This document shows positions 14,837-30,631 of a stretch of DNA of 30,631 nucleotides, piece by piece. The stretch is from positions 1 through 30,631 of the IMG/VR virus record IMGVR_UViG_3300027833_001225. The stretch is one strand, 5' to 3'. The stretch comes from a virus. Under the pieces are notes generated by a model that had not been told where the DNA came from, made no database searches, and saw only the letters and a program-made list of their open reading frames with translations. Position numbers and translations under genes: made by a program. The first letter of the stretch is position 1. Every line of letters starts with the position of its first letter.

Positions 14837-15484
14837 ATGAAAACTTTATTCAATATAGAGAATGGATTCAAAGCACTAGTAATTATACTATTGTCGATGA
14901 TCGCATTCAATGCCGATGCGGCAAAATGGAGCGGAGAAGCAGGTTATGCAAATGACTATGTATTCCGTGGAATATCTCAAACTCAAGGCGCAAGTTCTGC
15001 TTTCGGATCTATTGATTTAGATTTAGAGAACGGTATTAATGCTGGTGTTTGGGTAGGTCAAGTAGACTTTTCTGGTAGCGATGCTAGTGAAGAAATCTAC
15101 TCTTACATTTCATATAGCAAAACTTTAAGTGATGCTGTATCTGTAAGCGTAGGCTACGGTGATTACACATACGCAGGAGATTCAAGTTTAAATGGATCCG
15201 AGCAGTATATTTCCGTTAATGTAAAAGACTTCGGTCTTACACATGTAATGGGTAATGACACCTACAACGATTATACAAGACTAAGTTATACTGGTTTTGA
15301 TATTGTTGATATAGCATATGGCATGCAAGACGGTGTTGGAGACAATTTAATGTTTTTTAGATCTTTTGATTTACCTTTTGGTGGATTAGAAGGTTCAGTA
15401 GCATATATTGACTTCACTGCTGATGACAGCAGTTTACTACAGGACGAAGACCAGTTTGTCTTTGCTGTAAGTAAATCATTCTAA
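14837..15484 (+). CDS. Outer-membrane porin-like protein (TorF/Gcw_chp family)
   Basis: A 215-aa protein with a signal peptide ending ...MIAFNADA, then the mature start AKWSGEAGYANDYVFRGISQT, the hallmark of the Gcw_chp/TorF putative porin family. Alternating beta-strand sequence runs to a C-terminal Phe (VFAVSKSF), the usual signal for the outer-membrane assembly machinery. An AGGAGG site lies 6 bp before the ATG. The gene stands alone between two strong terminators with its own sigma-70 promoter, a cassette layout typical of a moron. A role in changing the host surface (superinfection exclusion, receptor masking, nutrient uptake) is inference. Confidence 0.8.
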   Translation: MKTLFNIENGFKALVIILLSMIAFNADAAKWSGEAGYANDYVFRGISQTQGASSAFGSIDLDLENGINAGVWVGQVDFSGSDASEEIYSYISYSKTLSDAVSVSVGYGDYTYAGDSSLNGSEQYISVNVKDFGLTHVMGNDTYNDYTRLSYTGFDIVDIAYGMQDGVGDNLMFFRSFDLPFGGLEGSVAYIDFTADDSSLLQDEDQFVFAVSKSF

Positions 15485-15620: not shown

Positions 15621-18600
15621 ATGGCAAAACGCACAGTTATAGCAGCAGATGAAGAGTTACTGGTACAAGGTACGCTCACAGTCACGGGAAATGTTACCCA
15701 GGTAGAATCAACGCAACTAGTTAACAGGTTAGAATCAGATGAACTTGTTATTAATGCTGACGGTGATGATGTTACGTCAAAACTTATCCTAAAAAGTAAC
15801 ACAACTCAAGCAACTATATCGTATAACCATACTGCTGGTGTTATTGAAATAGACAAAAACATCACATTTACTGGTGCAAGCCCAAGTTTAACAACAGACA
15901 TTGTCGGTGACGTTACAGGTGATGTAACTGGTGATGTAACTGGTACTGTTAGCAGTATTGCTAATCATACTACTTCTGACTTAACAGAAGGCAGTCGTCT
16001 ATACTATACAACTAATAGAGCTAACGCAGATTTTGATACAAGACTAGCAACTAAAGACACTGGCGATTTAGCAGAAGGCGGCAATCTTTATTATACTAGT
16101 GCCAGAGCAGATGCTAGAGTTAACTTGCAAACCGGTAGCAACTTAGACCTAAGTCAAAAAACTACATCGGATTTAGCAGAAGGTACAAATTTATATTATA
16201 CTCAGGGCAGATTCGACATAGCCTTTGGTAATAAGACAACAGCAAATTTATCAGAAAATACTAACTTATACTTTACAACTACAAGAGCTAGACAAAGTAT
16301 AAGTCATGCAGATACAGGCGGCGACGGAAGTTTATCATATGATAGCGGCACAGGTGTAATAACTTACACAGGACCGAGTGCTAGTGAAGTAAGAGCACAT
16401 TTTAGTGTTGGTACTAACAGCGGTGACGGTGATTTAAGTTATGCAAACGGTGTATTTGATTACACAGGTCCAACAGCAGCAGAAACAAGAGCTCACTTTA
16501 GTGCAAGTAACGGCGTTTCTTTAAGCAACGGTGCATTCCAAGCAGTTGAGAGCGAAATACAACATGATAGTTTATCCGGCTTTGTAACAAACGAACATAT
16601 TGACCACAGTGGTGTTTCATTAACAGCAGGTGCAGGTCTTACAGGTGGTGGTGATATCACTGCAAGTAGAACATTTAATGTTATAGGTGCTAATGGTATC
16701 ACAGCGAATGCAAATGATATTGAAATAGATACAACAGTAGTTGTAGACAGATCAACAGATCAAAGTATTGCAGGTGTTAAGACATTTACAGGCAGTGTAG
16801 ATCTAACAAGTGCAACTACAACAGCAGTAACCCAAGCAAACACAGACAACACTACTAACGTTGCTACTACAGCCTATGTTAAAACCGTTGTTGGTGATTT
16901 GATAGATGGTGCACCTGGTGCATTAGATACATTAAACGAATTAGCAGCCGCACTAAATGATGACGCAAGTGCCGGTACTAAAATAACAGATAATACAACT
17001 AGAATTACTACACTTGAAGGCGTAACAGTTTCTACAGGTAACGGACTAAGTGTAGATAATAGTGCAATACTTAGTAGCCCTACATTAACAACAGACGATA
17101 CTTACATTAAAAACTTGTTTAGTGCAACAGATGCAGGTGGTGATGGTTCGTTTAGTTATACTAACGGAGTATTCACATACACTGGCCCAAGTGCTAGTGA
17201 AACAAGAGCACACTTTAGTGGTAGTACAGGAATAACATTAAGCAGTGGTGCAATAAGCATTACTAACACAGCAGTTACAGCAGCAAGTTATGGTAGTGCA
17301 ACAGCAATACCAACTTATACTGTAAACGCACAAGGACAACTTACAGCGGCCGCTGATGTAAACATAGCAATACCGCATACGCAAATCACAGACTTTGACG
17401 CAGAAGTTGGTGCAAGAATAGATGCAGAACTAACTGGAGGAGACGGAATTGATTACACTGCTGGAGATATAGCAGTAGACTCCACAGTTGTCAGAACTTC
17501 AGGTAATCAAGCACTTGCAGACACTAAAACATTTACCGGAGCATTAGTAACCCCAAGCAGTTCATCTACAACAACTGGTGCAATATATCATGACACTAGT
17601 GCTAACAAAGCATACATTTATGTAGGTGGTGTTGCAAGAGAAATTACTCCAGCAGTTGATGTTGGTGCATTAGAAGATGTCGGCGCAACAGGTACAGACA
17701 TTTACGCAGGTGATAGAGTTGACGGTGCAACAACATACGCAGGTATTAAAAGTATAGCAGACGGCACATACTCTACATTATCAGATTCTGCAAACGTTAT
17801 CACAATAGACGCAGACATTACTGCAATACGTGGAGCATTTAGTGCCGTAGACAATGCAGGTGATGGAACATTTACATATAACAGTACAACTGGTGCATTT
17901 AGTTATTCAGGTGTATCCCAGAGTCAAATTAGATCAGAGTTTAGTGCTAGTGGAGCCACATTAAGTTATAACAACGGTACCGGCGCATTTACAAGCACAG
18001 CAGATAATTATAATTCATGGAAGTTTGCAACACCTACTACAGGAAACGTAGTTGTTGCTAGTGGAGACTTAGTTAACTTTACTGCAGGTTCCGGTATTGC
18101 AATTAGTAATTCGGGCAAAACAATTTCAATTACAAATACTAACGCTGCAGATATCACAGCAGTTACAGCAGGCACTGGTTTAAGTGGTGGTGGTACAGCA
18201 GGTGCAGTTACACTTAATCTCAATGCAAGTACAAGTCTTGTAACCGAAGGCACAAATTTATATTATACAGATGCAAGAGCAGATGCTAGAATTTCAAATG
18301 CAATACTAGATTCAGATACATTTACTGGGGCAACCGCAACTAACATACCATCAGCAGAATCAACAAAAGCATACGTTGATACAGCGGTACTTGGCGTAGT
18401 TGGTGGCTCGCTAGATTTAAGTTCTAAGTCAACTAGTGATTTAGCAGAAGGTACAAATTTATATTATACAGATGCAAGAGCCAGAGCGGCAGTAAGTGCA
18501 ACACTTGGTACAGCAGGTTATACAGAAAGCACAGGTGTGTTTAGCATACCAAGTACCACAGCACATATTTCAGAAGGTACTAATTTATATCACACAACAG

Positions 18601-19673
18601 CAAGAGCAAGAGCAGCTATAAGTGCTGGTGGTGATTTATCATACAACAGCACAACTGGTGTAATTAGTTATACTGACCCATCACCTAGAACTGATGCTAC
18701 AATCAGAGGTTTGTTTAGTGCAGGTGGAGACATTTCGTACAACAGTTCAACTGGTCAGTTTAGTTTTACAGATTCAGATAGAAATGATGCTACAATCAGA
18801 GGTTTGTTTAGTGGTGGAACCGGTATTACATATAACAGCACATCTGGTGCGATTAGTTTAACAGACACTGGATATGTAACAGGTGTTACAGCCGGCACTG
18901 GTTTAAGTGGAGGCGGTACTTCAGGTACAGTTTCACTAGCAGTTAGTGGCTTAACAGTAGCAGAATTTGCAGGCAGTGCAATCCAATTAAGTTCAGAAAG
19001 TTATGTAGACAACAATACATCACTAATGACCTCAGCGGCTATTAGCGATAAGATCGAAAGTTATGGTTATTCAACAACAGTTGGTGACATTACAGCAGTA
19101 ACAGCAGGCTCCGGTTTAACAGGTGGAGCAACTAGCGGAGGTGCAACATTAAATGTAGGCGCCGGAAGTTATATTGTTGTAGCAGCCGATACGGTAGCAG
19201 TTGATGCAACAAGTGCAAACTCAGCAAGTAAAGTTGTAGCCAGAGACGGCTCAGGTAACTTTAGTGCAGGTGTTATTACAGCAACAGCAACCGCAGCAAG
19301 ATACGCTGACTTGGCAGAGAAATACGCAACTGATACAGATTACGAATACGGCACAGTTGTTGTGTTTGGAGGCGAAAAAGAAGTTACTGTAACAAGCGAA
19401 AGCAATTCACCAAGAGTAGCAGGCGTTATTAGTACAGATCCTGCTTACATGATGAACAAAGATGCAGAAGGACAATACGTTGCATTACGTGGACGAGTTC
19501 CGTGTAAAGTAATTGGCCCAGTTGCAAAAGGTGATGTACTTGTGACATCAAGCAGACCAGGCTTTGCAGAAGCAGCAAGCGACCCACATTTTGTAGGCGT
19601 TGCATGTTATGTAGGTAAAGCAATTTCAAGCATAGACACCCCATCCGAAGGCGTTATCGAAATTATGGTATAA
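15621..19673 (+). CDS. Large repetitive tail fibre/adhesin-type structural protein
   Basis: A 1350-aa Ser/Thr/Gly/Asn-rich protein. It contains many degenerate copies of a unit like [17 protein letters not shown] followed by [23 protein letters not shown], as in marine T4-like phage fibre and structural proteins. The C-terminal 150 residues ([52 protein letters not shown]) form a domain shared with the 1084-aa protein. Such proteins probably trimerise into beta-rich fibres that touch the host. Host binding is inference. The N-terminus begins [23 protein letters not shown], resembling virion-anchoring ends of related proteins. Confidence 0.65.
18786..19319 (+). repeat. Shared C-terminal block, copy 1
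   Basis: This 178-codon block aligns without gaps to 24651-25184 (constant offset 5865). By eye about ten residues differ, while many synonymous positions differ. It covers the segment from [11 protein letters not shown] to ARYADLAE. Confidence 0.85.
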
Positions 19674-22283: not shown

Positions 22284-25200
22284 ATGGCAACAGCTATTCA
22301 GTTTAGACGCGGTACGACCGCACAACACAGCTCATTTACAGGCTTAGTAGGTGAAATCACGGTCGATACCGATTTGGATACAATTCGTGTCCATGACGGC
22401 TCAACTGCTGGTGGCACACGATTAGCAAAGTACAGTGAGGTAGTAGCAGCGGCAACAGGTGATATTACATCGGTTGTAGCAGGCTCAGGATTAACAGGTG
22501 GAGCAACAGACGGTGATGCAACCATAAGTTTAGATTACGGTAACTTGACAGGTAGTTTAATACCAAGTGCTAACGTAACATACGACTTAGGTTCATTAAC
22601 AAAGCAATGGAAAGACATATATGTTGGACCAGGTTCACTTTACGTTAACGGACAAAAGGTACTTGAAGATAATTCAGGAACAATTCAGTTTACAGCAGAC
22701 AATAACCAGAACATTAGTATTTTAACTACTGGCTCCGGTGACTTGGAAATGACATCAGGTGGAACAATCCAGCTCAAGTCAGATGTTGTATTAACAGCAA
22801 CTAAAACAATCACATCAAGTGGCGGTGTTAAGTTTGGATCAAACATTAACATGAACAGCAGCAACATCAACAATGTTGATGATCCTGTTGCGGCACAAGA
22901 CGCAGCTACTAAAGCATACGTTGATGCACAGGTTGATACAAAAGATGCATTAAGCGAACTAAGTGGTGATACTGATGATGTATCAGAAGGTTCAACTAAT
23001 TTATACTATACAACAGCACGTTGGGATAGCAAAATGGCATCAGCTGATTCAGATAATTTAAGTGAAGGTTCAACTAATCTTTACTTTACAGATGCAAGAG
23101 CAGATGCAAGAGCACTTGGTGCTATTTCTGTAACAGATGCAGGTGGTGATGGTTCATTATCATATAACAACGGTACTGGTGTTATTACTTATACTGGTGT
23201 TAGTGCAGCAGAAACAGAATCAAGAATAGACGCTCACTTAGTAGGCGGCGATGGCCTTGACTATGCAAGTGGTACATTTGATGTTGATGCTACAGTTGTA
23301 AGAACAGCTGGTGCTCAAACAGTAGCAGGTGCTAAGACATACAGTGACGATGCAGTGTTTAACGGTAACGTTACAATTAGTGGTACACAAACTATTGTTA
23401 ATTCACAGATTACTGCATTAGCAGATAGCGTTATTGAATTAAACAGAGATGCAAGTGGTGCTCCAAGCGAAGATGCTGGAATACAAATTAACAGAGGTTC
23501 AAGTGCAGATGTTAACTTAATATGGGACGAAAGCGAAGGCTATTGGTCATTTACTAATGACGGAAGCTCAAACTTTAAGATCGCTACTGAAACTGACGAC
23601 TTAGTTGAAGGTTCAAGTAACCTTTACTTTACAGATGCAAGAGCAAGAGCTGCTGTTTCAGTAACTGACGCAGGTGGTGACGGTTCATTAACATACAACA
23701 GCACATCTGGTGTTATTACTTATACAGGCCCTAGTGCAGCAGAAGTACAAGCTCACATTAGCGTAACTGACGCAGGTGGTGATGGTTCATTAGCATACAG
23801 CAGTGGTGTAATTACTTATACCGGTCCTAGTGCATCAGAAACAAGAGCACATTTAAGTGCTGGAACTGGAATGACATTTAGTGGTGGCGCATTTGCTACA
23901 ACTATTACTCAGTATACTGATGCAATGTCAGACAGCAGATTTGATGTTAAACTTGCAGCAGGCGATACAGATGATTTAAGTGAAGGTGCAAGTAACCAAT
24001 ATCACACAACTGCAAGAGCTAGAGCAGCAATTAGTGCAAGTGGCGATATATCATACAACAGCACAACTGGTGTAATTAGTTTTACTAACGATGCAGGTGA
24101 TATTGAAAGTGTAGTAGCAGGCGCTGGTATGACAGGTGGCGGCACAACAGGTGATGTCACATTAAATGTTATAGGCGGTAACGGTATTACTGTATCAGCA
24201 GACAGCATTGCAATTACTGATTCATATGTTAATACATTAGCAGATGCAAGAGTACAAGCGGCTATAGATACAGATGCTACTTTTGCTAGTGCTTCTAATA
24301 GTTTAATACCTTCACAGTTAGCAGTTAAAACATACGTTGACGCACAGATTGATACAGCAGACGCACTTAGTGAACTAAGTGGCGACTCAGATGATATAAC
24401 AGAAGGCGGAACTAACTTATTCCACACAACTGCAAGAGCTAGAGCGGCAATTAGTGCAACTGGTTCACTTACATATAACTCAGGAACAGGTGTTATTAGT
24501 TATACACAAAGTGATACAGACGGTGTTAGCGAAGGTTCAAGTAACCTTTACCATACATCAGCAAGAGTTAGAGCAGCAATTAGTGTAAGCGGAAGTTTAT
24601 CATACAACAGTTCAACTGGTGTTATTAGTTATACTGACTCAGACAGAAGTGATGCTACAATCAGAGGTTTGTTTAGTGGCGGAACTGGTATTACATATAA
24701 CAGCACATCTGGTGCTATTAGTTTAACAGATACTGGTTACATTACTGGTGTTACAGCAGGTACTGGTTTAAGTGGCGGTGGTACAAGTGGTACAGCAACA
24801 TTAAACGTAAGTGGCTTAACTGTAGCAGAATTTGCAGGAAGTGCAATTCAAATAAGCTCAGAGAGTTATGCAGACAACAACACATCATTAATGACTTCAG
24901 CAGCTATTAGTGATAAGATTGAAAGTTACGGATACTCAACTACAACAGGTGATATTACAGCAGTAACAGCAGGTTCTGGTTTAACAGGTGGTGCTACAAG
25001 TGGTGGCGCAACTCTTAACGTTGGAGCAGGTTCTTACATAGTAGTAGCATCTGATACAGTAGCAGTTGATGCAACAAGTGCAAACTCAGCAAGTAAAGTA
25101 GTAGCAAGAGATGGCTCAGGTAACTTTAGTGCAGGAACTATTACAGCAACAGCAACATCAGCAAGATATGCGGATTTGGCTGAGAACTATGAAGCTGACG

Positions 25201-25538
25201 CAGAGTACGAAGCAGGAACAGTTGTTATGTTTGGTGGTGAGAAAGAAATTACAGCAACAGACAGTGAAAACAACAGTGCTGTAGTTGGTGTTATCTCAAC
25301 AGACCCAGCTCACTTAATGAATGCAGATTGCGAAGGCATAGCATTACCAGTAGCATTAGCAGGACGAGTACCATGTAAAGTAAGTGGTCCAGTTGCTAAA
25401 GGTGACTTAATGGTTTCCGCAGGCGAAGGTAGAGCTAAAGCAGACAATGCGGCGCAAGCAGGTTGTATCATTGGTAAAGCAATTAGTGCAAACGAAGACG
25501 GCGAAGGCGTTTGTGAAGTACTAGTTAACATGATGTAA
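22284..25538 (+). CDS. Large tail fibre/adhesin-type protein with Mtd-like N-terminus
   Basis: A 1084-aa protein. The first 50 residues (IQFRRGTTAQHSSFTGLVGEITVDTDLDTIRVHDG) resemble the N-terminal virion-attachment domain of phage receptor-binding proteins such as the major tropism determinant. Then come many copies of the LSEGSTNLYYTTARA / [23 protein letters not shown] unit, and the C-terminal domain shared with the 1350-aa protein. The shared 178-residue block is nearly identical between the two. A receptor-binding or fibre role is likely but not proven. The block ends at a strong terminator. Confidence 0.65.
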   Translation: MATAIQFRRGTTAQHSSFTGLVGEITVDTDLDTIRVHDGSTAGGTRLAKYSEVVAAATGDITSVVAGSGLTGGATDGDATISLDYGNLTGSLIPSANVTYDLGSLTKQWKDIYVGPGSLYVNGQKVLEDNSGTIQFTADNNQNISILTTGSGDLEMTSGGTIQLKSDVVLTATKTITSSGGVKFGSNINMNSSNINNVDDPVAAQDAATKAYVDAQVDTKDALSELSGDTDDVSEGSTNLYYTTARWDSKMASADSDNLSEGSTNLYFTDARADARALGAISVTDAGGDGSLSYNNGTGVITYTGVSAAETESRIDAHLVGGDGLDYASGTFDVDATVVRTAGAQTVAGAKTYSDDAVFNGNVTISGTQTIVNSQITALADSVIELNRDASGAPSEDAGIQINRGSSADVNLIWDESEGYWSFTNDGSSNFKIATETDDLVEGSSNLYFTDARARAAVSVTDAGGDGSLTYNSTSGVITYTGPSAAEVQAHISVTDAGGDGSLAYSSGVITYTGPSASETRAHLSAGTGMTFSGGAFATTITQYTDAMSDSRFDVKLAAGDTDDLSEGASNQYHTTARARAAISASGDISYNSTTGVISFTNDAGDIESVVAGAGMTGGGTTGDVTLNVIGGNGITVSADSIAITDSYVNTLADARVQAAIDTDATFASASNSLIPSQLAVKTYVDAQIDTADALSELSGDSDDITEGGTNLFHTTARARAAISATGSLTYNSGTGVISYTQSDTDGVSEGSSNLYHTSARVRAAISVSGSLSYNSSTGVISYTDSDRSDATIRGLFSGGTGITYNSTSGAISLTDTGYITGVTAGTGLSGGGTSGTATLNVSGLTVAEFAGSAIQISSESYADNNTSLMTSAAISDKIESYGYSTTTGDITAVTAGSGLTGGATSGGATLNVGAGSYIVVASDTVAVDATSANSASKVVARDGSGNFSAGTITATATSARYADLAENYEADAEYEAGTVVMFGGEKEITATDSENNSAVVGVISTDPAHLMNADCEGIALPVALAGRVPCKVSGPVAKGDLMVSAGEGRAKADNAAQAGCIIGKAISANEDGEGVCEVLVNMM
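24651..25184 (+). repeat. Shared C-terminal block, copy 2
   Basis: Partner of 18786-19319. Protein sequence is kept more tightly than third-codon positions. That points to an old duplication under purifying selection, or to occasional gene conversion, rather than a fresh copy. Confidence 0.85.
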
Positions 25539-25557
25539 ACAATACTTAGGTATAATA

Positions 25558-25586
25558 AAGAGCACTCTTCGGAGTGCTTTTTTTTT
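25558..25586 (+). terminator. Strong intrinsic terminator, duplicate of the gp23 one
   Basis: GCACTC-TTCG-GAGTGC followed by nine T. The hairpin and at least eight T plus the following GA are identical to 14604-14630. Confidence 0.92.
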
Positions 25587-25597
25587 GATCGTAAAGT

Positions 25598-25605
25598 CAT
25601 AAATA
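25598..25605 (+). promoter_or_regulatory. T4-like late promoter of the curli operon
   Basis: CATAAATA lies directly after the terminator, about 100 bp before the first gene of the operon. It fits the late boxes elsewhere with one change at the first base. Confidence 0.55.
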
Positions 25606-25608
25606 CTG

Positions 25609-25633
25609 TTATAGGTAGGTAGGCTTCCTATAA
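25609..25633 (+). other. Hairpin in the curli operon leader
   Basis: TTATAGG (25609-25615) pairs with CCTATAA (25627-25633) around an 11-base loop holding GGTAGG-type repeats. It lies immediately after the late promoter, near the 5' end of the transcript. Confidence 0.5.
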
Positions 25634-25706
25634 CGAGTGATACACACAATAACTGTAATGAGTTATAAACACCGTAAAGACACAATGTGAAACGGCGGAG
25701 ATTCGT

Positions 25707-26003
25707 ATGAACGAGATTTTTGGATTTATAGGAGAGGTAGGAGCACCAATTGCTGGCAGTCTAGTAATGGGTTTCTTTATATTCTTAGTAATCAAACAAA
25801 TACTCGAAGGAGTCGTAGGCCAAGTAAAAACACTTACAATTTTTTGTAAGAGTTTAGAAAACCGTGCATCTACTATGTCAAACGAAATGATAAAGATTGA
25901 CATGTTAGTAAGCAGTGCATTAGATTTACGACCAGACATAGAACGTATTGCTAGAGCAGAAAACTTTGTAGAAGAAGGCAAAGTGGACGTGAGGAGAGAC
26001 TAA
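25707..26003 (+). CDS. Small membrane-anchored coiled-coil protein
   Basis: A 98-aa protein with one membrane segment (about residues 12-32, APIAGSLVMGFFIFLVIKQIL), then a polar helix to the C-terminus. It has the general look of small phage holin-like or anchor proteins, but no family is certain. It is first in the curli operon, after a GGCGGAG ribosome site, and its stop overlaps the next start as TAATG. The 100-aa protein two genes on has the same layout, so the pair may be distant copies. Confidence 0.6.
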   Translation: MNEIFGFIGEVGAPIAGSLVMGFFIFLVIKQILEGVVGQVKTLTIFCKSLENRASTMSNEMIKIDMLVSSALDLRPDIERIARAENFVEEGKVDVRRD

Positions 26004-26206
26004 TGACGAGATTCTGCGATTACTATTTTAGTACAACACCTGATTCAATTGAAATGGATGAGGAATTAACTTTAGATCAATTAGGTTTAAAGTTAGGTGA
26101 CGGATTAGTTACAACACTTGATAAGAACGGCACCGTTGTTCTTAAGAAAATTGACTTAACTAAGGTTGAGCATATAGAGTTAACTGATATTAAAATAAAG
26201 GAATAA
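26003..26206 (+). CDS. Small unknown protein (67 aa)
   Basis: The product is short, mainly polar and acidic, with MDEELTLDQLGLKLGDGLVTTLDKNGTVVLKK. It has no signal peptide or membrane segment. It lies between the two membrane/coiled-coil genes with one-base overlap or spacing on either side. No family is recognised; the close packing is the reason to accept it as a gene. Confidence 0.55.
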   Translation: MTRFCDYYFSTTPDSIEMDEELTLDQLGLKLGDGLVTTLDKNGTVVLKKIDLTKVEHIELTDIKIKE

Positions 26207-26207
26207 T

Positions 26208-26510
26208 ATGGAAGAGATTGTCAACGCAATAAACGACTATGGATTCCCAGTAGTAATGAGTGTTGGCCTAGGATATTTTGTGTATTACATTTGGTGGTTT
26301 ATTGGAGAAAAGATAGACCCAGCATTAGAAGAAATGCACATGGCTTTAATTAAAGTAATAGATAAAACTCGCATGCTAGATCAAGACTTGATCAGACTAC
26401 AACAAAAAGTAAATGTCGTATTAGAATATAAAGCAAAAGAACAAATTATTAAGGACGCACAGAACACAGAGCTTTTAAAAAACATAGAGGAAGGATTAAC
26501 ACATGATTGA
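26208..26510 (+). CDS. Second small membrane-anchored coiled-coil protein
   Basis: A 100-aa protein with a membrane segment at about residues 13-33 (FPVVMSVGLGYFVYYIWWFIG), followed by a long charged helix. It resembles the 98-aa protein in length, an M-x-EI start, a G-x-P before the membrane segment and a helical tail. It overlaps the csgF start by eight bases (ATGATTGA). It may assist export, form a holin-like pore or anchor the curli apparatus to the inner membrane; none of these can be chosen from sequence. Confidence 0.6.
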   Translation: MEEIVNAINDYGFPVVMSVGLGYFVYYIWWFIGEKIDPALEEMHMALIKVIDKTRMLDQDLIRLQQKVNVVLEYKAKEQIIKDAQNTELLKNIEEGLTHD

Positions 26511-27027
26511 TAACAAACACAAAGATACACCTTTACTAGTTTTAGGTTATATCTTGTTAGGTATGATAGTACTGCTATCTACTACCGCAACTGCAGATTC
26601 ATTAACGCACAAATTTAAGAATCCTAGTTTTAGTGGTATTGGAACTGGAGCACATTACCTAACGATAGAAAATCAAGAAAGAACTCGTAGGCAAAAGATC
26701 AAAGACGATATTGAATCAGCTTTAAAGCAAGCAGAACGAGAAGACTCGAACAGCACAATTAACAAATTCATTAGAAATTTAGAGAGCAGAATATACGCCC
26801 AAATCTCTAAGGGATTAGTTGACAGCATGTTTTGTGATCCAGCTACTGTAGTAGAGTGTACGGGTTCAGACTCAGGCGACTTTACAATTGAAGGTAATAA
26901 TGTAAGTTACCAAATAGTTATATCTGACGATGGATTAGAAGTAATGAGACTTACTATTGTTTCTCCAGACGGCACAATAACTGAGATAGAGATACCGATC
27001 GGCATCGGCAGCATTGGCGGCGGGTAA
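26503..27027 (+). CDS. csgF: CsgF-like curli assembly protein
   Basis: A 174-aa protein with an N-terminal signal/anchor (LLVLGYILLGMIVLLSTTATA). The predicted mature start DSLTHKFKNPSFSG matches the CsgF signature (E. coli FQFRNPNFGG), the segment that plugs into the CsgG pore. The C-terminal beta part (YQIVISDDGLEVMRLTIVSPDG) also fits CsgF. In curli systems CsgF couples the secretion pore to nucleation of the fibre. The middle is longer than in E. coli CsgF (138 aa) and includes a charged helix. The residue matching E. coli N17 is Thr or a gap. It directly precedes csgG with TAATG overlap. Confidence 0.85.
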   Translation: MIDNKHKDTPLLVLGYILLGMIVLLSTTATADSLTHKFKNPSFSGIGTGAHYLTIENQERTRRQKIKDDIESALKQAEREDSNSTINKFIRNLESRIYAQISKGLVDSMFCDPATVVECTGSDSGDFTIEGNNVSYQIVISDDGLEVMRLTIVSPDGTITEIEIPIGIGSIGGG

Positions 27028-27980
27028 TGATGAAGTATTTAGGAATCGCACTTCTATGTGTAGGCTTCTTGTCAGGCTGTGCAAGCATGGCTCTACCTGG
27101 CGACAAAAACTGCACCACTGATTTCCTCCAATGCATCGAAGAACCAAAAGAAGTAGAATTACCTACATTCAAAAAATTACGACAGTTACCACCGGCTGAA
27201 ACAAGACCGATTGTAGCAGTTTATCAATTTGCCGACTTAACTGGACAACGTTTAAGTTCTGGCGGAGCGGCTAGTTTTAGCACAGCCGTAACACAAGGTG
27301 CTAAAGCCTTACTAATAGACGCACTCAAAGCAGCAGGCGCTGATTCAGACCCGCAGGGTACTTGGTTCAGAGTTGTTGAAAGAGGTCTGGGTCTAGACAA
27401 TCTTGTCCGAGAGCGACAAATAATTCGTAGCACACGTGATAGTTATGCTACTGAGAAAGCTCCGCCACAAGATGTACAACCATTATTATTTGCAGGAGTG
27501 ATACTAGAGGGTGGCGTTATTGGCTACGACTCTAATATTGAGACTGGCGGTAACGGTGCTCGATACCTAGGTATTGGCACAACTAATGAATATAGGCGTG
27601 ACAGTGTTGTAGTTTCGCTTAGAGCAGTTAGTGTACTTACTGGCGAAGTGATATTAAACGTACAGACATACAAAACTATTCTCAGTGTTGGGATGGGTGG
27701 TGACGTATTTAAATTCCTTGATATGGATACGCGACTACTTGAAATTGAGAGTGGTATGACAGAGAATGAAAGTGTAACTTGGGGTGTTAGATCAGCGATC
27801 GAAGCAGCCGTTTATGCTCTCATCGAACAAGGAGATGAAAGAGGTTTCTGGAAAATAAACTACCCATTAGAGTTGGGTAACACTACAACAGGTACTATCG
27901 ACGGTACTGACACAGATTTAGAAACGGGTAATGAGCCCTCTGATAGCCAATTGGCTTTAGAGGATAATGAGAATGATTAA
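27027..27980 (+). CDS. csgG: CsgG-like curli secretion pore lipoprotein
   Basis: A 317-aa protein with a lipobox LSGC at residues 15-18. CsgG landmarks include VAVYQFADLTGQ, FSTAVTQGAKALLIDAL, the ERGLGLDNLVRERQIIR helix, the GGVIGYDSNIETGGNGARYLGIG strand region, TGEVILNVQTYKTILS and the SAIEAAVYALIEQGDERGFW helix. CsgG forms the nonameric outer-membrane channel for curlin export. The constriction loop differs from E. coli: the YPASNF motif is replaced by roughly GGAASF, keeping Phe56 but not Tyr51 or Asn55. The last 35 residues are an acidic Thr/Asp/Glu tail. ATG at 27030 is an equally good start. Confidence 0.92.
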   Translation: MMKYLGIALLCVGFLSGCASMALPGDKNCTTDFLQCIEEPKEVELPTFKKLRQLPPAETRPIVAVYQFADLTGQRLSSGGAASFSTAVTQGAKALLIDALKAAGADSDPQGTWFRVVERGLGLDNLVRERQIIRSTRDSYATEKAPPQDVQPLLFAGVILEGGVIGYDSNIETGGNGARYLGIGTTNEYRRDSVVVSLRAVSVLTGEVILNVQTYKTILSVGMGGDVFKFLDMDTRLLEIESGMTENESVTWGVRSAIEAAVYALIEQGDERGFWKINYPLELGNTTTGTIDGTDTDLETGNEPSDSQLALEDNEND

Positions 27981-27999
27981 TCATAAAATGGAGAATAAA

Positions 28000-28797
28000 A
28001 TGAAGACTTTTTCGAGCAAGTTATTTGCAGGTGTCTTCGCTACGGTTTGCTTTTTTACTGGTAATTTAGCTAGTGCTGATAATGAAGTATTGATCGATCA
28101 AATAGGTGACAACTTAACTTTAACTGTGTTACAAGCCGGTTATGGAAACAGTTTGTCCGGCGATACAAGTCAGGGAACTGATCTAACTTTAACAGGTGGA
28201 TCATTAATCATTGACCTTATACAAGATGGTAATCTTAACGAAACTTTTGGTTCGTGGGTACTTGACGGTTCGGGTTCAAGTGTGATTGACTTATATTTCC
28301 AAGGCGATAGTAATATTTGGGATATGAATATTGGTGCTACAGGCAGTGGTGACTATACTGACATCTTATCAAACATAATAGGTTCTAGTAACTTATTTGA
28401 TATAGATATTGGTGGAAACGCAGTTGCTGAAAGTACAAATATGGATCTTTACATACTAGGTGATAGAAATGACTTTTCAACAAGTTTTACTAACAGCAAA
28501 GTATGGGCAGCAGGTGGTTCAGTTAATAATAGTACTGGTACACAGACCATGGCAGGCATAGTTATAGATTCAAGCAACAATATTTGGAACTTTGATGTTA
28601 CAGGCGACGACAATGCATTCGCAACAAAACAGGCAAGCAATGACGGTAATAGCATGACAGTAGAACTCATGGGTTCAGATGGAGACTTCCAGCTGATACA
28701 GAACATGACATCTACATGTACACCAGCATGTGCTGGAGTTATCAATTTAGATATTGATAGTGAAAATGCATCAGTCAGTGTTGTTCAGCAAGACTAA
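28000..28797 (+). CDS. Curlin-repeat protein (CsgA/CsgB-like)
   Basis: A 265-aa protein from the ATG at 28000, chosen because a GGAG box lies 6 bp upstream and the signal peptide then fits (MKTFSSKLFAGVFATVCFF...LASA). An in-frame start at 27967 exists but adds an unlikely leader. The mature part has degenerate curlin repeats of the Q-x-G-x-N type: LIDQIGDNLTLTVLQAGYGN, LIQDGNLN, YFQGDSN, ILGDRND, VTGDDNAF, LMGSDGDFQLIQ. It ends SVSVVQQD. Curlins are secreted through CsgG and self-assemble into amyloid fibres. The spacing and length are less regular than E. coli CsgA (151 aa), so fibre formation is inference. Confidence 0.8.
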   Translation: MKTFSSKLFAGVFATVCFFTGNLASADNEVLIDQIGDNLTLTVLQAGYGNSLSGDTSQGTDLTLTGGSLIIDLIQDGNLNETFGSWVLDGSGSSVIDLYFQGDSNIWDMNIGATGSGDYTDILSNIIGSSNLFDIDIGGNAVAESTNMDLYILGDRNDFSTSFTNSKVWAAGGSVNNSTGTQTMAGIVIDSSNNIWNFDVTGDDNAFATKQASNDGNSMTVELMGSDGDFQLIQNMTSTCTPACAGVINLDIDSENASVSVVQQD

Positions 28798-29938
28798 GTG
28801 GCTTTTGCTACTTAGTTGCATTGCAACAAGTTCAATAAATGCCGCTGAAAATATCGGCGGCATACTTGAACAATCTGGTTCCGTAGGTAAAATATCTAGA
28901 ACAACTGGAGAAACTTTACAAGCAGAATTACAGACAGACATTGTTAGTATGGACGAGGTAGAAACTGCTAACGGTAGATTAAAGATTAAATTTATAGACG
29001 ATACGCAAGTTAGTCTAACAGAAAATACATACATGGAAATTAACGAGTATGTGTTTGACCCAGACCCTAATAAAAGCAGGATGGCTTTAAATTTTGTGTC
29101 AGGAACAGCAAGATTTGCAACAGGCGGATTAGGACTTGTAGCAAGAGAGAATATAACAATACAAACTCCCACAGCCAGTATAGGCATAAGGGGAACAGAT
29201 TTTACTACCACAGTTGATGAACTAGGTAGAAGTTTGGTAATATTATTACCAGACGAAGATTGCACAGATAGAGTAGCACTAGAAGAAGGGTGTGCTCCGA
29301 GTGGAAGTATAACAGTTACTAACGCAGGTGGTACGCAAGTATTAGACGAAGCGTACCAAGCAGTAATGGTAAGCACATTTGAAACTATACCTACTGCACC
29401 TGTTAAACTAGTAAACTTAGATTTAAATATGATAGACAATATGTTTATTGTAAGTGAGCCAGCAGAAATTACCGAAGCAGAAGAAGAGCAAGCATCAGAA
29501 TTAAAAGGCGGTGGCGGAATGCTAGACTTTGACGGACTAGATCAAGACTTTTTAGATACTGCTACACTAGATGATAATACAGCAAACAATTATGAATTTA
29601 GCGAATTAGACATTGACTTTTTAGATGTAGAATTCTTAAACGATTTGCTAGATGTGCTAAGTGATGATATAGATTCACTAGCAGAAGAAAATACAGCCGC
29701 AGGTGGTGATAGACTAATTGGAACAAAGTTCGGTAACGATCCAGAGACACAGTTTAATACATTTCCTGACTATGATGGCAAAGTGTTTTTTCTTAGACAA
29801 GTTGGAAACAAAGTAGGAATAAAATTAGCACAAGGTGCAAAGGCACGAATTACTATATATGACGATGATACAGGAGAAACTTTGTTATGCTTGAACAGTT
29901 GTGATGGCGTATACATAAGTATTACACAAAATGATTAA
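28766..29938 (+). CDS. Exported FecR-domain protein
   Basis: A 390-aa protein. The ATG at 28766 lies in the last 32 bases of the curlin gene and is followed by a signal peptide (SKTKWLLLLSCIATSSINA). Residues of about 25-170 carry a FecR-type domain: GSVGKISRTTGETLQ, NGRLKIKFIDDTQVSLTENTYMEINEY, and ENITIQTPTASIGIRGTDFTTTV. The rest is acidic, with repeated DFLDT/DFLDVEFLND-like elements, and a C-terminal beta domain with two Cys. FecR domains occur in envelope signalling and in exported structural proteins. A sensor, anchor or cap of the curlin fibre is possible; the operon position between two curlins favours an extracellular role. Confidence 0.75.
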   Translation: MHQSVLFSKTKWLLLLSCIATSSINAAENIGGILEQSGSVGKISRTTGETLQAELQTDIVSMDEVETANGRLKIKFIDDTQVSLTENTYMEINEYVFDPDPNKSRMALNFVSGTARFATGGLGLVARENITIQTPTASIGIRGTDFTTTVDELGRSLVILLPDEDCTDRVALEEGCAPSGSITVTNAGGTQVLDEAYQAVMVSTFETIPTAPVKLVNLDLNMIDNMFIVSEPAEITEAEEEQASELKGGGGMLDFDGLDQDFLDTATLDDNTANNYEFSELDIDFLDVEFLNDLLDVLSDDIDSLAEENTAAGGDRLIGTKFGNDPETQFNTFPDYDGKVFFLRQVGNKVGIKLAQGAKARITIYDDDTGETLLCLNSCDGVYISITQND

Positions 29939-30631
29939 GAACATATTAAATAAAATAACAGGTACGCATCTAGGAATACTAGTTATAGTAATGTTCTTTA
30001 CAGCACAGGCATGTTATGCACAAGACAATGTACTAACAATGACTCAGCAAGGGGACAATGTTATTATAGACGTTTTACAAGCAGGATACAATAACAGTAT
30101 AGATGTTGATTTAGGATTAAGTGGATTTGATGCCAGCAATGAATTTGAAGTAAAACAAGACGGCAATGACAACGATGTCTTTTTAAGTATAGGCGGAAAT
30201 ACTAACAGTCTAATTTTTTATCAGAAAGGTGCTAAAAACACAATCGGCTGGACAGACACTTGGGGTAGCGGATTAAATTGGGGTGGAGACTTAGACGGTG
30301 ATAATAACAATATTATGATTAAACAGTACACTGACACTGGTAAAAATATAGCAGATAACTACTTTGGCTTCCACATACAAGGCGATAATAATAATGTAAA
30401 AGGTGGACAAGGCTATTTCATAAACAGTAACACAGGTTCTTATAGCCAAGGACAAGGGTGGGGTGATAATTATATGAGATTAGATATCCATGGTGATAGC
30501 AATGATGTAATAACCACACAAAGAACTGATGCCGCAAATAATGGAGCAACAGCCTATGTAAATGTGTACGCAGATCTCAATGATTTGTATGTGCAACAAC
30601 GACAAGGCGCTCACACATTAAACTTAACTAT
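29931..30631 (+). CDS. Second curlin-repeat protein, 3' end missing
   Basis: ATG at 29931 overlaps the FecR gene stop (ATGATTAA), the same join type as at csgF. A signal peptide (GILVIVMFFTAQACYA) is followed by curlin-type repeats: MTQQGDNVIIDVLQAGYNNSIDV, VKQDGNDND, IGGNTNSLIFYQKGAKNTI, IQGDNNNVKG, IHGDSNDVITTQ, YVQQRQGAH. The repeats match the Q-x-G-x-N pattern better than those of the first curlin, with more Asn, so this may be the main subunit and the first the nucleator, or the reverse. The frame is still open at the window end after 233 codons. Confidence 0.82.
   Translation, partial: MIKNILNKITGTHLGILVIVMFFTAQACYAQDNVLTMTQQGDNVIIDVLQAGYNNSIDVDLGLSGFDASNEFEVKQDGNDNDVFLSIGGNTNSLIFYQKGAKNTIGWTDTWGSGLNWGGDLDGDNNNIMIKQYTDTGKNIADNYFGFHIQGDNNNVKGGQGYFINSNTGSYSQGQGWGDNYMRLDIHGDSNDVITTQRTDAANNGATAYVNVYADLNDLYVQQRQGAHTLNLT

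Follow-up and report, generated by a model that had tools for sequence, protein, structure and literature searches.

The viral DNA analyzed here, a stretch of 30,631 bases that makes up the entire IMG/VR record IMGVR_UViG_3300027833_001225 (hereafter the window), carries on its plus strand, from 25707 to 30631, a segment whose assignment as a viral curli (type VIII secretion) operon in phage DNA is supported by our analysis. The original prediction had listed csgF- and csgG-like genes, two curlin-repeat genes (CurA and CurB below), a FecR-domain gene and two membrane/coiled-coil genes (TM-cc1 and TM-cc2) packed end to end; each of these was recovered, with CurB interrupted by the window end, and the packing held, but the list was incomplete, as an additional 67-residue open reading frame (ORF) lies between both membrane genes. 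Viral curli modules are an already published kind, of which the window is a further member in a PA5oct/CBB-like lineage. Our computations show the genes and their architecture, transfer of the module between virus lineages, exchange of the CurB subunit, and similarity between the FecR tail and curlins.

The operon and its viral carriers

Profile searches placed CsgG (153.6 bits against a cut-off of 20.8) and CsgF (47.1 bits against 25.8) above their Pfam cut-offs, in agreement with the identities first proposed, and E. coli CsgG structures align with the window CsgG at 2e-45. The N-terminal FKNPSFSG of CsgF aligns with FRNPNFGG of E. coli CsgF, and this docking motif, the part known to sit in the CsgG mouth in published CsgG-CsgF structures, is kept in 38 of 40 representatives; a lipobox is present in 35 of 39 CsgG representatives. 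The predicted FecR-domain gene likewise passes its Pfam cut-off, while the two curlin-repeat genes are recognized clearly at the family level, with Curlin_rpt matching 26 of 36 CurA relatives (best 8.6e-6) and 26 of 37 CurB relatives (best 7.4e-17). The earlier remark that no CsgE is visible extends to the relatives, as 14 long relatives, among them the complete HTVC008M and Melnitz genomes, yielded no CsgE above cut-off; the window represents a genome fragment. The phage origin is confirmed by genes for the portal, prohead protease, gp23-type capsid and tail fibers on the same 30.6 kb, and neither of the outcomes against which the prediction had been staked, a lack of CsgG/CsgF profile matches or an assembly from bacterial DNA, came about.

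A CsgG search of IMG/VR returned 80 related loci. Among 50,697 phage records, CsgG matched only HTVC008M (two records), Melnitz (four records) and one 1.5 kb 'Salmonella phage' record, and was not found in the jumbo phages of this collection. The short record, OR851715.1 (1,499 bases, Salmonella phage S.Kent 1-2-1), may represent a piece of bacterial csg DNA deposited as phage. The survey of related phages proposed with the prediction revealed conservation, with a near-invariant gene order in 83 loci: TM-cc1, TM-cc2, CsgF, CsgG, CurA, FecR, CurB and a CHASE2 adenylate cyclase. Genes were assigned by position and C-terminus, since iterated CsgF and curlin profiles cross-recruited each other, and CurA was called by position. 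Wherever loci leave room after csgG, CurA follows (74/74) and so does FecR (63/63), and no pore-only operon, meaning csgG without a curlin gene, occurs among the 74 loci with room downstream. The FecR gene sits between two curlin genes in the window, as in the published pelagiphage module. The cyclase follows CurB in sister contigs L002-L007, a place that in the window lies past the end; it was not found within several kb after CurB in L008, L009, L010 and L012, a subgroup in which it seems dispensable or relocated. In L054-L073, the interval from CurB to the cyclase repeatedly holds small barrel-like ORFs (about 106-118 residues), perhaps further envelope proteins travelling with the module. 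Seven loci filed as bacterial metagenome-assembled genomes (MAGs; L097-L103, labeled Saprospirales, Sphingobacteriales, Planctomycetaceae, Flavobacteriaceae, Pirellulales and Rhodobacteraceae) bear a curli operon of the phage type and probably represent misbinned phage contigs.

Judged from its capsid, the window virus appears to be no ordinary pelagimyophage and to belong to the PA5oct/CBB jumbo-related lineage. Its capsid, portal and protease are 68%, 55% and 64% identical to those of the Pseudomonas jumbo phage PA5oct, as opposed to 38-40% capsid identity with Melnitz and HTVC008M. The capsid tree groups the window and its sister contigs with PA5oct, CBB, Phosso and Vibrio 2.275.O (support 100/100), whereas in the CsgG tree they nest among contigs with Kyanoviridae-like (pelagimyophage-like) capsid proteins (99/98), with HTVC008M and Melnitz placed apart and viral CsgG separated from bacterial CsgG at 100/100. 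Because the two trees place the window differently, the simplest reading is that the curli module moved between virus lineages. The longest PA5oct-like sister contig reaches 109.7 kb, compared with the 30.6 kb fragment represented by the window record. A T4-type portal was not found on a third contig group (L054-L081), and a podoviral portal search matched nothing on any related contig and is hence uninformative for placing that group.

The suggested precedent of curli genes in pelagimyophages proved real: a cluster in HTVC008M and relatives was published in 2020 (PMC7029224), and a type VIII secretion system (T8SS) module of pelagiphages, both podoviral (HTVC023P-type) and myoviral, in 2022 (PMC9599517). 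The window resembles the HTVC008M cluster in combining CsgF, CsgG, curlin-associated and hypothetical genes in one operon, and differs in its capsid, only 40% identical, and in its separate position in the CsgG tree. It matches the T8SS module in having one or two small upstream genes, csgF, csgG, curlin, fecR, curlin and, in relatives, the cyclase, with no CsgE, and transfer of this module between virus families has already been proposed (PMC9599517). That study does not treat the PA5oct/CBB-like lineage, however, nor does it describe the CurB exchange or the curlin-like FecR terminus. We found no earlier report of these two features, or of a curli module in this lineage, in the open-access literature searched. 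Curli genes were also published in 2020 for a marine T4-like virus, the Bacteroidetes-assigned TARA_ERS488589_N000003, together with an attachment idea (PMC7198788); this 180 kb Exo-T4-like genome lies near pelagibacter and cyanobacterial phages and is not PA5oct-like. The OM43 phage Melnitz, whose operon was read in 2022 as a lysis pore with csgA/B said to be absent (PMC9004378), shares the operon, FecR and CHASE2 cyclase included, yet its GenBank record (MZ577097.1, L083, 6357-9151) annotates two curlin-repeat proteins and a FecR protein, and our analysis likewise finds two curlin genes. Bacterial curli systems (E. coli csgBAC/csgDEFG and alphaproteobacterial operons) have the CsgG and CsgF families in common with the window, whereas the viral modules have no CsgE detected in relatives and add a FecR protein and a CHASE2 cyclase; homologues of these two were not found near five alphaproteobacterial curli loci.

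Curlin-like subunits and the FecR-domain protein

CurB is hypervariable and is traded between viruses as a cassette with sharp borders. Across 49 pairs of operons whose CsgG proteins are 75-99.5% identical, median identity is 86% for CsgG, 87% for CurA, 84% for FecR and 84% for the cyclase, compared with 52% for CurB, and CurB falls below CsgG, CurA and FecR in 42 of these pairs, which are not independent, as some contigs are near-copies. Nucleotide identity between L002 and L003 is mostly >85% up to the CurB start, ~13-56% through the CurB body and >90% in most of the cyclase. L058 and L070 have CurB genes that are mostly 99-100% identical within operons that are roughly 60-86% identical, and the window and L003 share 91-100% nucleotide identity over CurB, yet 70-74% over the 3' part of FecR. 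The same operons recur in separate assemblies (for example L004, L005 and L006), so that assembly chimeras are disfavored. CurA, CsgG, CsgF and FecR are under purifying selection, with ratios of nonsynonymous to synonymous substitution (dN/dS) of about 0.10-0.13, and the operon genes other than CurB have median values of 0.05-0.13, although many synonymous distances are near saturation. The pattern seen for CurB is as expected of a part in contact with changing partners beyond the cell. A PA14 domain, which occurs in adhesins, is present in some CurB relatives.

Curlin-type invariant residues are common to all 36 CurA representatives, and a profile comparison relates CurA to CurB at E 2.1e-10. 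A Foldseek search with the CurA structure model (pLDDT 74, pTM 0.70) gave no significant match among solved structures, and a further VIA comparison returned generic beta-helices only (best SufB/SufD, Z 17.8); since structural matches were absent or generic, we claim only a beta-solenoid for CurA. Exact counting of curlin repeats proved too strict for use.

The FecR protein runs from a signal-like N-terminus through a FecR fold and a poorly predicted linker to a C-terminal beta domain of ~75 residues (pLDDT near 90). Its model aligns with the PupR periplasmic signaling domain (Z 16.4, 2.5 Å, 134 residues) and with the surface-anchoring (adhesin) domain 5ix9 (Z 9.3, 2.3 Å, 74/76 residues), the sequence match to the latter being E 0.095. 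All 40 FecR relatives end in I-x-Q. The C-terminal motif phi-x-[VIL]-x-Q is present in 36/36 CurA, 38/40 FecR and 32/41 CurB representatives, compared with 0/133 for TM-cc1, TM-cc2, CsgF and CsgG and 1/33 for the cyclases; bacterial curlin-type subunits end in phi-x-phi-x-Q. An origin of the motif as a by-product of gene overlap is disfavored, as it persists without overlap in CurA of L053 (gap +57) and L082 (gap +2). Profile comparison of the FecR and CurB C-termini gave E 3.1e-5 over 60 columns, against 0.28-0.9 for other genes and ≥0.14 for column shuffles, which points to a curlin-like FecR tail. Such a tail was not seen in eight FecR relatives from bacterial contigs (L104-L111), one of these ORFs being cut by the contig end. 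We rejected a FecR-type iron anti-sigma regulator, given that a signal-like helix start is followed by the FecR fold and curlin-like tail in an operon without a sigma factor, and nothing other than the name of the domain speaks for the iron-regulatory role implied by the published label.

Flanking signals, upstream genes and other features of the window

The operon lies immediately after a tail-fiber terminator, as predicted, and this terminator is strong. The proposed late-type promoter held in part: ATAAATAC is at chance level within the window (3 observed vs 2.4 expected), but ATAAATA occurs ≤140 bases upstream of 25/52 distinct operons compared with 82/508 (16%) background ORFs (Fisher 5e-7, with the related operons not independent). 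Because ATAAATA is enriched upstream of related operons and resembles the T4 late-promoter consensus, TATAAATA, the operon is likely expressed late in infection. The motif stands only ~12 bases ahead of the first start codon, upstream of TM-cc1, in L018-L024, L033 and L045, a spacing that would give a nearly leaderless transcript. An Rfam scan of the window returned no match.

The two membrane/coiled-coil genes, as anticipated, encode such proteins, and are paralogues sharing PHROG 18771; in relatives, the one or two corresponding genes ahead of csgF encode products of 83-119 residues that have a membrane helix at the N-terminus. TM-cc2 is confined within the phage collection to curli-bearing phages, and its PDB search produced weak, chance-like matches only. 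The genes ahead of csgF in the pelagiphage T8SS module were labeled histidine kinases (PMC9599517), whereas those described here show no kinase domain: the window proteins have 98 and 100 residues and no kinase family among their listed matches, a check that covers the loci found here. A holin or YvrJ identity was also set aside, the best PHROG holin match (4898, 0.02) and the best YvrJ match (0.066, 6/29 members) being insufficient for naming.

Elsewhere in the window, an exported Gcw_chp-family protein (14837-15484; Pfam 4.4e-11), outer-membrane-barrel-like and with a terminal F, is encoded between the capsid and tail-fiber genes and is possibly another host-surface change. The product of 1025-2308, with a signal-like start, a CVVCH haem-binding-like motif and a weak Cytochrome_CBB3 match (0.007, below cut-off), is a possible secreted cytochrome-like phage protein. 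The tail-fiber-like giants at 15621-19673 and 22284-25538 have long near-identical stretches in common towards their C-termini, as if one had been copied from the other.

Table 1. Coordinates of the features described in the window.
Feature	Position	Strand	Evidence
Intrinsic terminator after tail-fiber gene (22284-25538)	25557..25588	+	Stem 25557-25582, 11 pairs, then T run (pattern scan)
Late-promoter-like motif ATAAATAC	25599..25606	+	Motif scan; ATAAATA enrichment in related operons
TM-cc1, one N-terminal membrane helix and coiled coil	25707..26003	+	PHROG 18771 2e-22; conserved place; dN/dS about 0.05
67-residue ORF	26003..26206	+	Seen only in window and L003
TM-cc2, TM-cc1 paralogue	26208..26510	+	PHROG 18771 1.5e-24
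CsgF homologue, CsgG-docking motif FKNPSFSG	26503..27027	+	Pfam 3.3e-12; alignment to E. coli CsgF
CsgG homologue, predicted outer-membrane lipoprotein pore	27027..27980	+	Pfam 5.8e-45; PDB 2e-45
CurA, conserved curlin-like subunit, predicted beta-solenoid	27967..28797 (start perhaps 28000)	+	Curlin_rpt 0.074; family matches; model
FecR-domain protein	28766..29938 (likely start ATG 28766; listed ORF TTG 28754)	+	Pfam 1.8e-10; FecR-fold model
Putative curlin-like C-terminal module of FecR-domain protein	29711..29935	+	Separate beta domain, pLDDT about 90; profile match to CurB C-terminus
CurB, second curlin-like subunit, exchanged cassette	29931..30631 (cut by window end)	+	NCBIfam CsgB 4e-4; shared with L003

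Function of the module

We lean, by a modest degree of belief, towards a mobile viral type VIII module through which an infected Gram-negative cell would display a phage-encoded fiber that combines a conserved core with an exchangeable subunit for recognition. In keeping with their families, CsgG would form the pore in the outer membrane, with CsgF docked at its mouth; together they would export curlin subunits from the infected cell, probably late in infection, with CurA as the standard building block of the fiber and CurB as the exposed, exchangeable subunit contacting other cells or phages. Because no CsgE was found in relatives, we propose the FecR protein as a tie or terminator of the fiber; once exported, it might hold, start or cap the fiber, or stand in for the missing CsgE as a plug of the pore. 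The CHASE2 adenylate cyclase that follows in most relatives may report on fiber export, and TM-cc1 and TM-cc2 may be inner-membrane partners. The net function would be recognition outside the cell, either holding neighboring cells for the next infection round or shielding from competing phages. Capture of neighboring cells has been proposed previously (PMC7198788; PMC7029224, as sibling capture for the pelagimyophage cluster), as has shielding against rival phages (PMC9599517), and CurB exchange fits both. The more specific proposal, that at least two distant T4-related marine phage lineages share a mobile, late-made fiber apparatus with CurB traded as a cassette and a FecR anchor bearing a curlin terminus, is one that we put forward tentatively and with more doubt than belief.

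Several observations weigh against a displayed fiber. The window's own CurA and CurB score 13.5 and 12.8 bits with Curlin_rpt, below the Pfam curated cut-off of 20.7, and recombination combined with relaxed constraint could also account for CurB exchange. The probability of the FecR-CurB profile match is only 73%, and one negative control reached 0.006, which is why we grade the curlin likeness of the FecR tail as supported, not proven. With respect to cell capture in particular, no clumping was observed in Melnitz cultures (PMC9004378), mild evidence in favor of shielding.

The purpose of viral curli has been debated since 2020 between pore-type and fiber-type ideas. Repurposing of CsgG and CsgF as a gated pore or pinholin that times lysis, with the curlins as bystanders, was proposed for Melnitz from structure models and gene context (PMC9004378) and draws some encouragement from the faint holin/YvrJ resemblance of the two membrane proteins. 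We consider it improbable, as it rested partly on the absence of csgA/B from a phage with two annotated curlin-repeat genes and leaves unexplained both the exchange of CurB and curlin genes that follow csgG in 74/74 loci under purifying selection. Uptake of nutrients or cofactors through a CsgG pore left open without CsgE, in which the FecR protein would act as a regulator linked to iron, has likewise been proposed (PMC7029224, PMC9599517) and is consistent with the missing CsgE in long relatives and the presence of a FecR domain; we hold it to be quite improbable, since the FecR protein has a signal-like start, no cytoplasmic anti-sigma part and a curlin-like end, and the conserved and diversified curlins would go unexplained. 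Pore-only ideas of both types, lysis timing and nutrient uptake, are less likely because the curlins are always present and selected, and envelope weakening before lysis, among the earlier suggestions for the window, is a poor fit, given that the pore always comes with curlin genes, one of which diversifies. A secreted fiber with variable specificity is favored over these because curlins always accompany the pore while one is conserved and the other swapped.

Placement of the curlin products onto virions, as decoration or as virion-virion or virion-cell glue, would suit an operon directly behind tail-fiber genes with a late-type motif and a CurB that varies as tail fibers do. It nevertheless appears unlikely to us, because export signals and a dedicated outer-membrane pore argue that these products leave the cell before virions, and in HTVC008M and Melnitz the operon stands apart from the tail-fiber genes. 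Ordinary accessory cargo, transient in phage genomes and with no specific infection role, accords with an ultimately bacterial origin of the viral genes (PMC9599517) and with the lack of the cyclase in some contigs, but is very unlikely in view of an order conserved in 83 loci, strong purifying selection and carriage by two or more virus lineages. A segment of bacterial DNA, or a chimeric assembly, might be suspected from curli being a bacterial system and from matches in bacterial MAGs; we regard this as next to impossible, as two isolated phages carry the operon and so do independent viral contigs, some of which also bear capsid and portal genes, viral CsgG separates fully from bacterial CsgG, and seven of the MAG matches bear the phage-type operon.

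Collectively, these findings put two published statements in doubt, namely the absence of csgA/B from Melnitz and the histidine kinases upstream of csgF, give the FecR protein a proposed structural instead of iron-regulatory role, and name CurB as the piece for testing. The presence of the module in a jumbo-related lineage implies wide travel among marine phages, and the displayed fiber, if real, would constitute a virus-built recognition organ on the host surface that evolves as tail fibers do.

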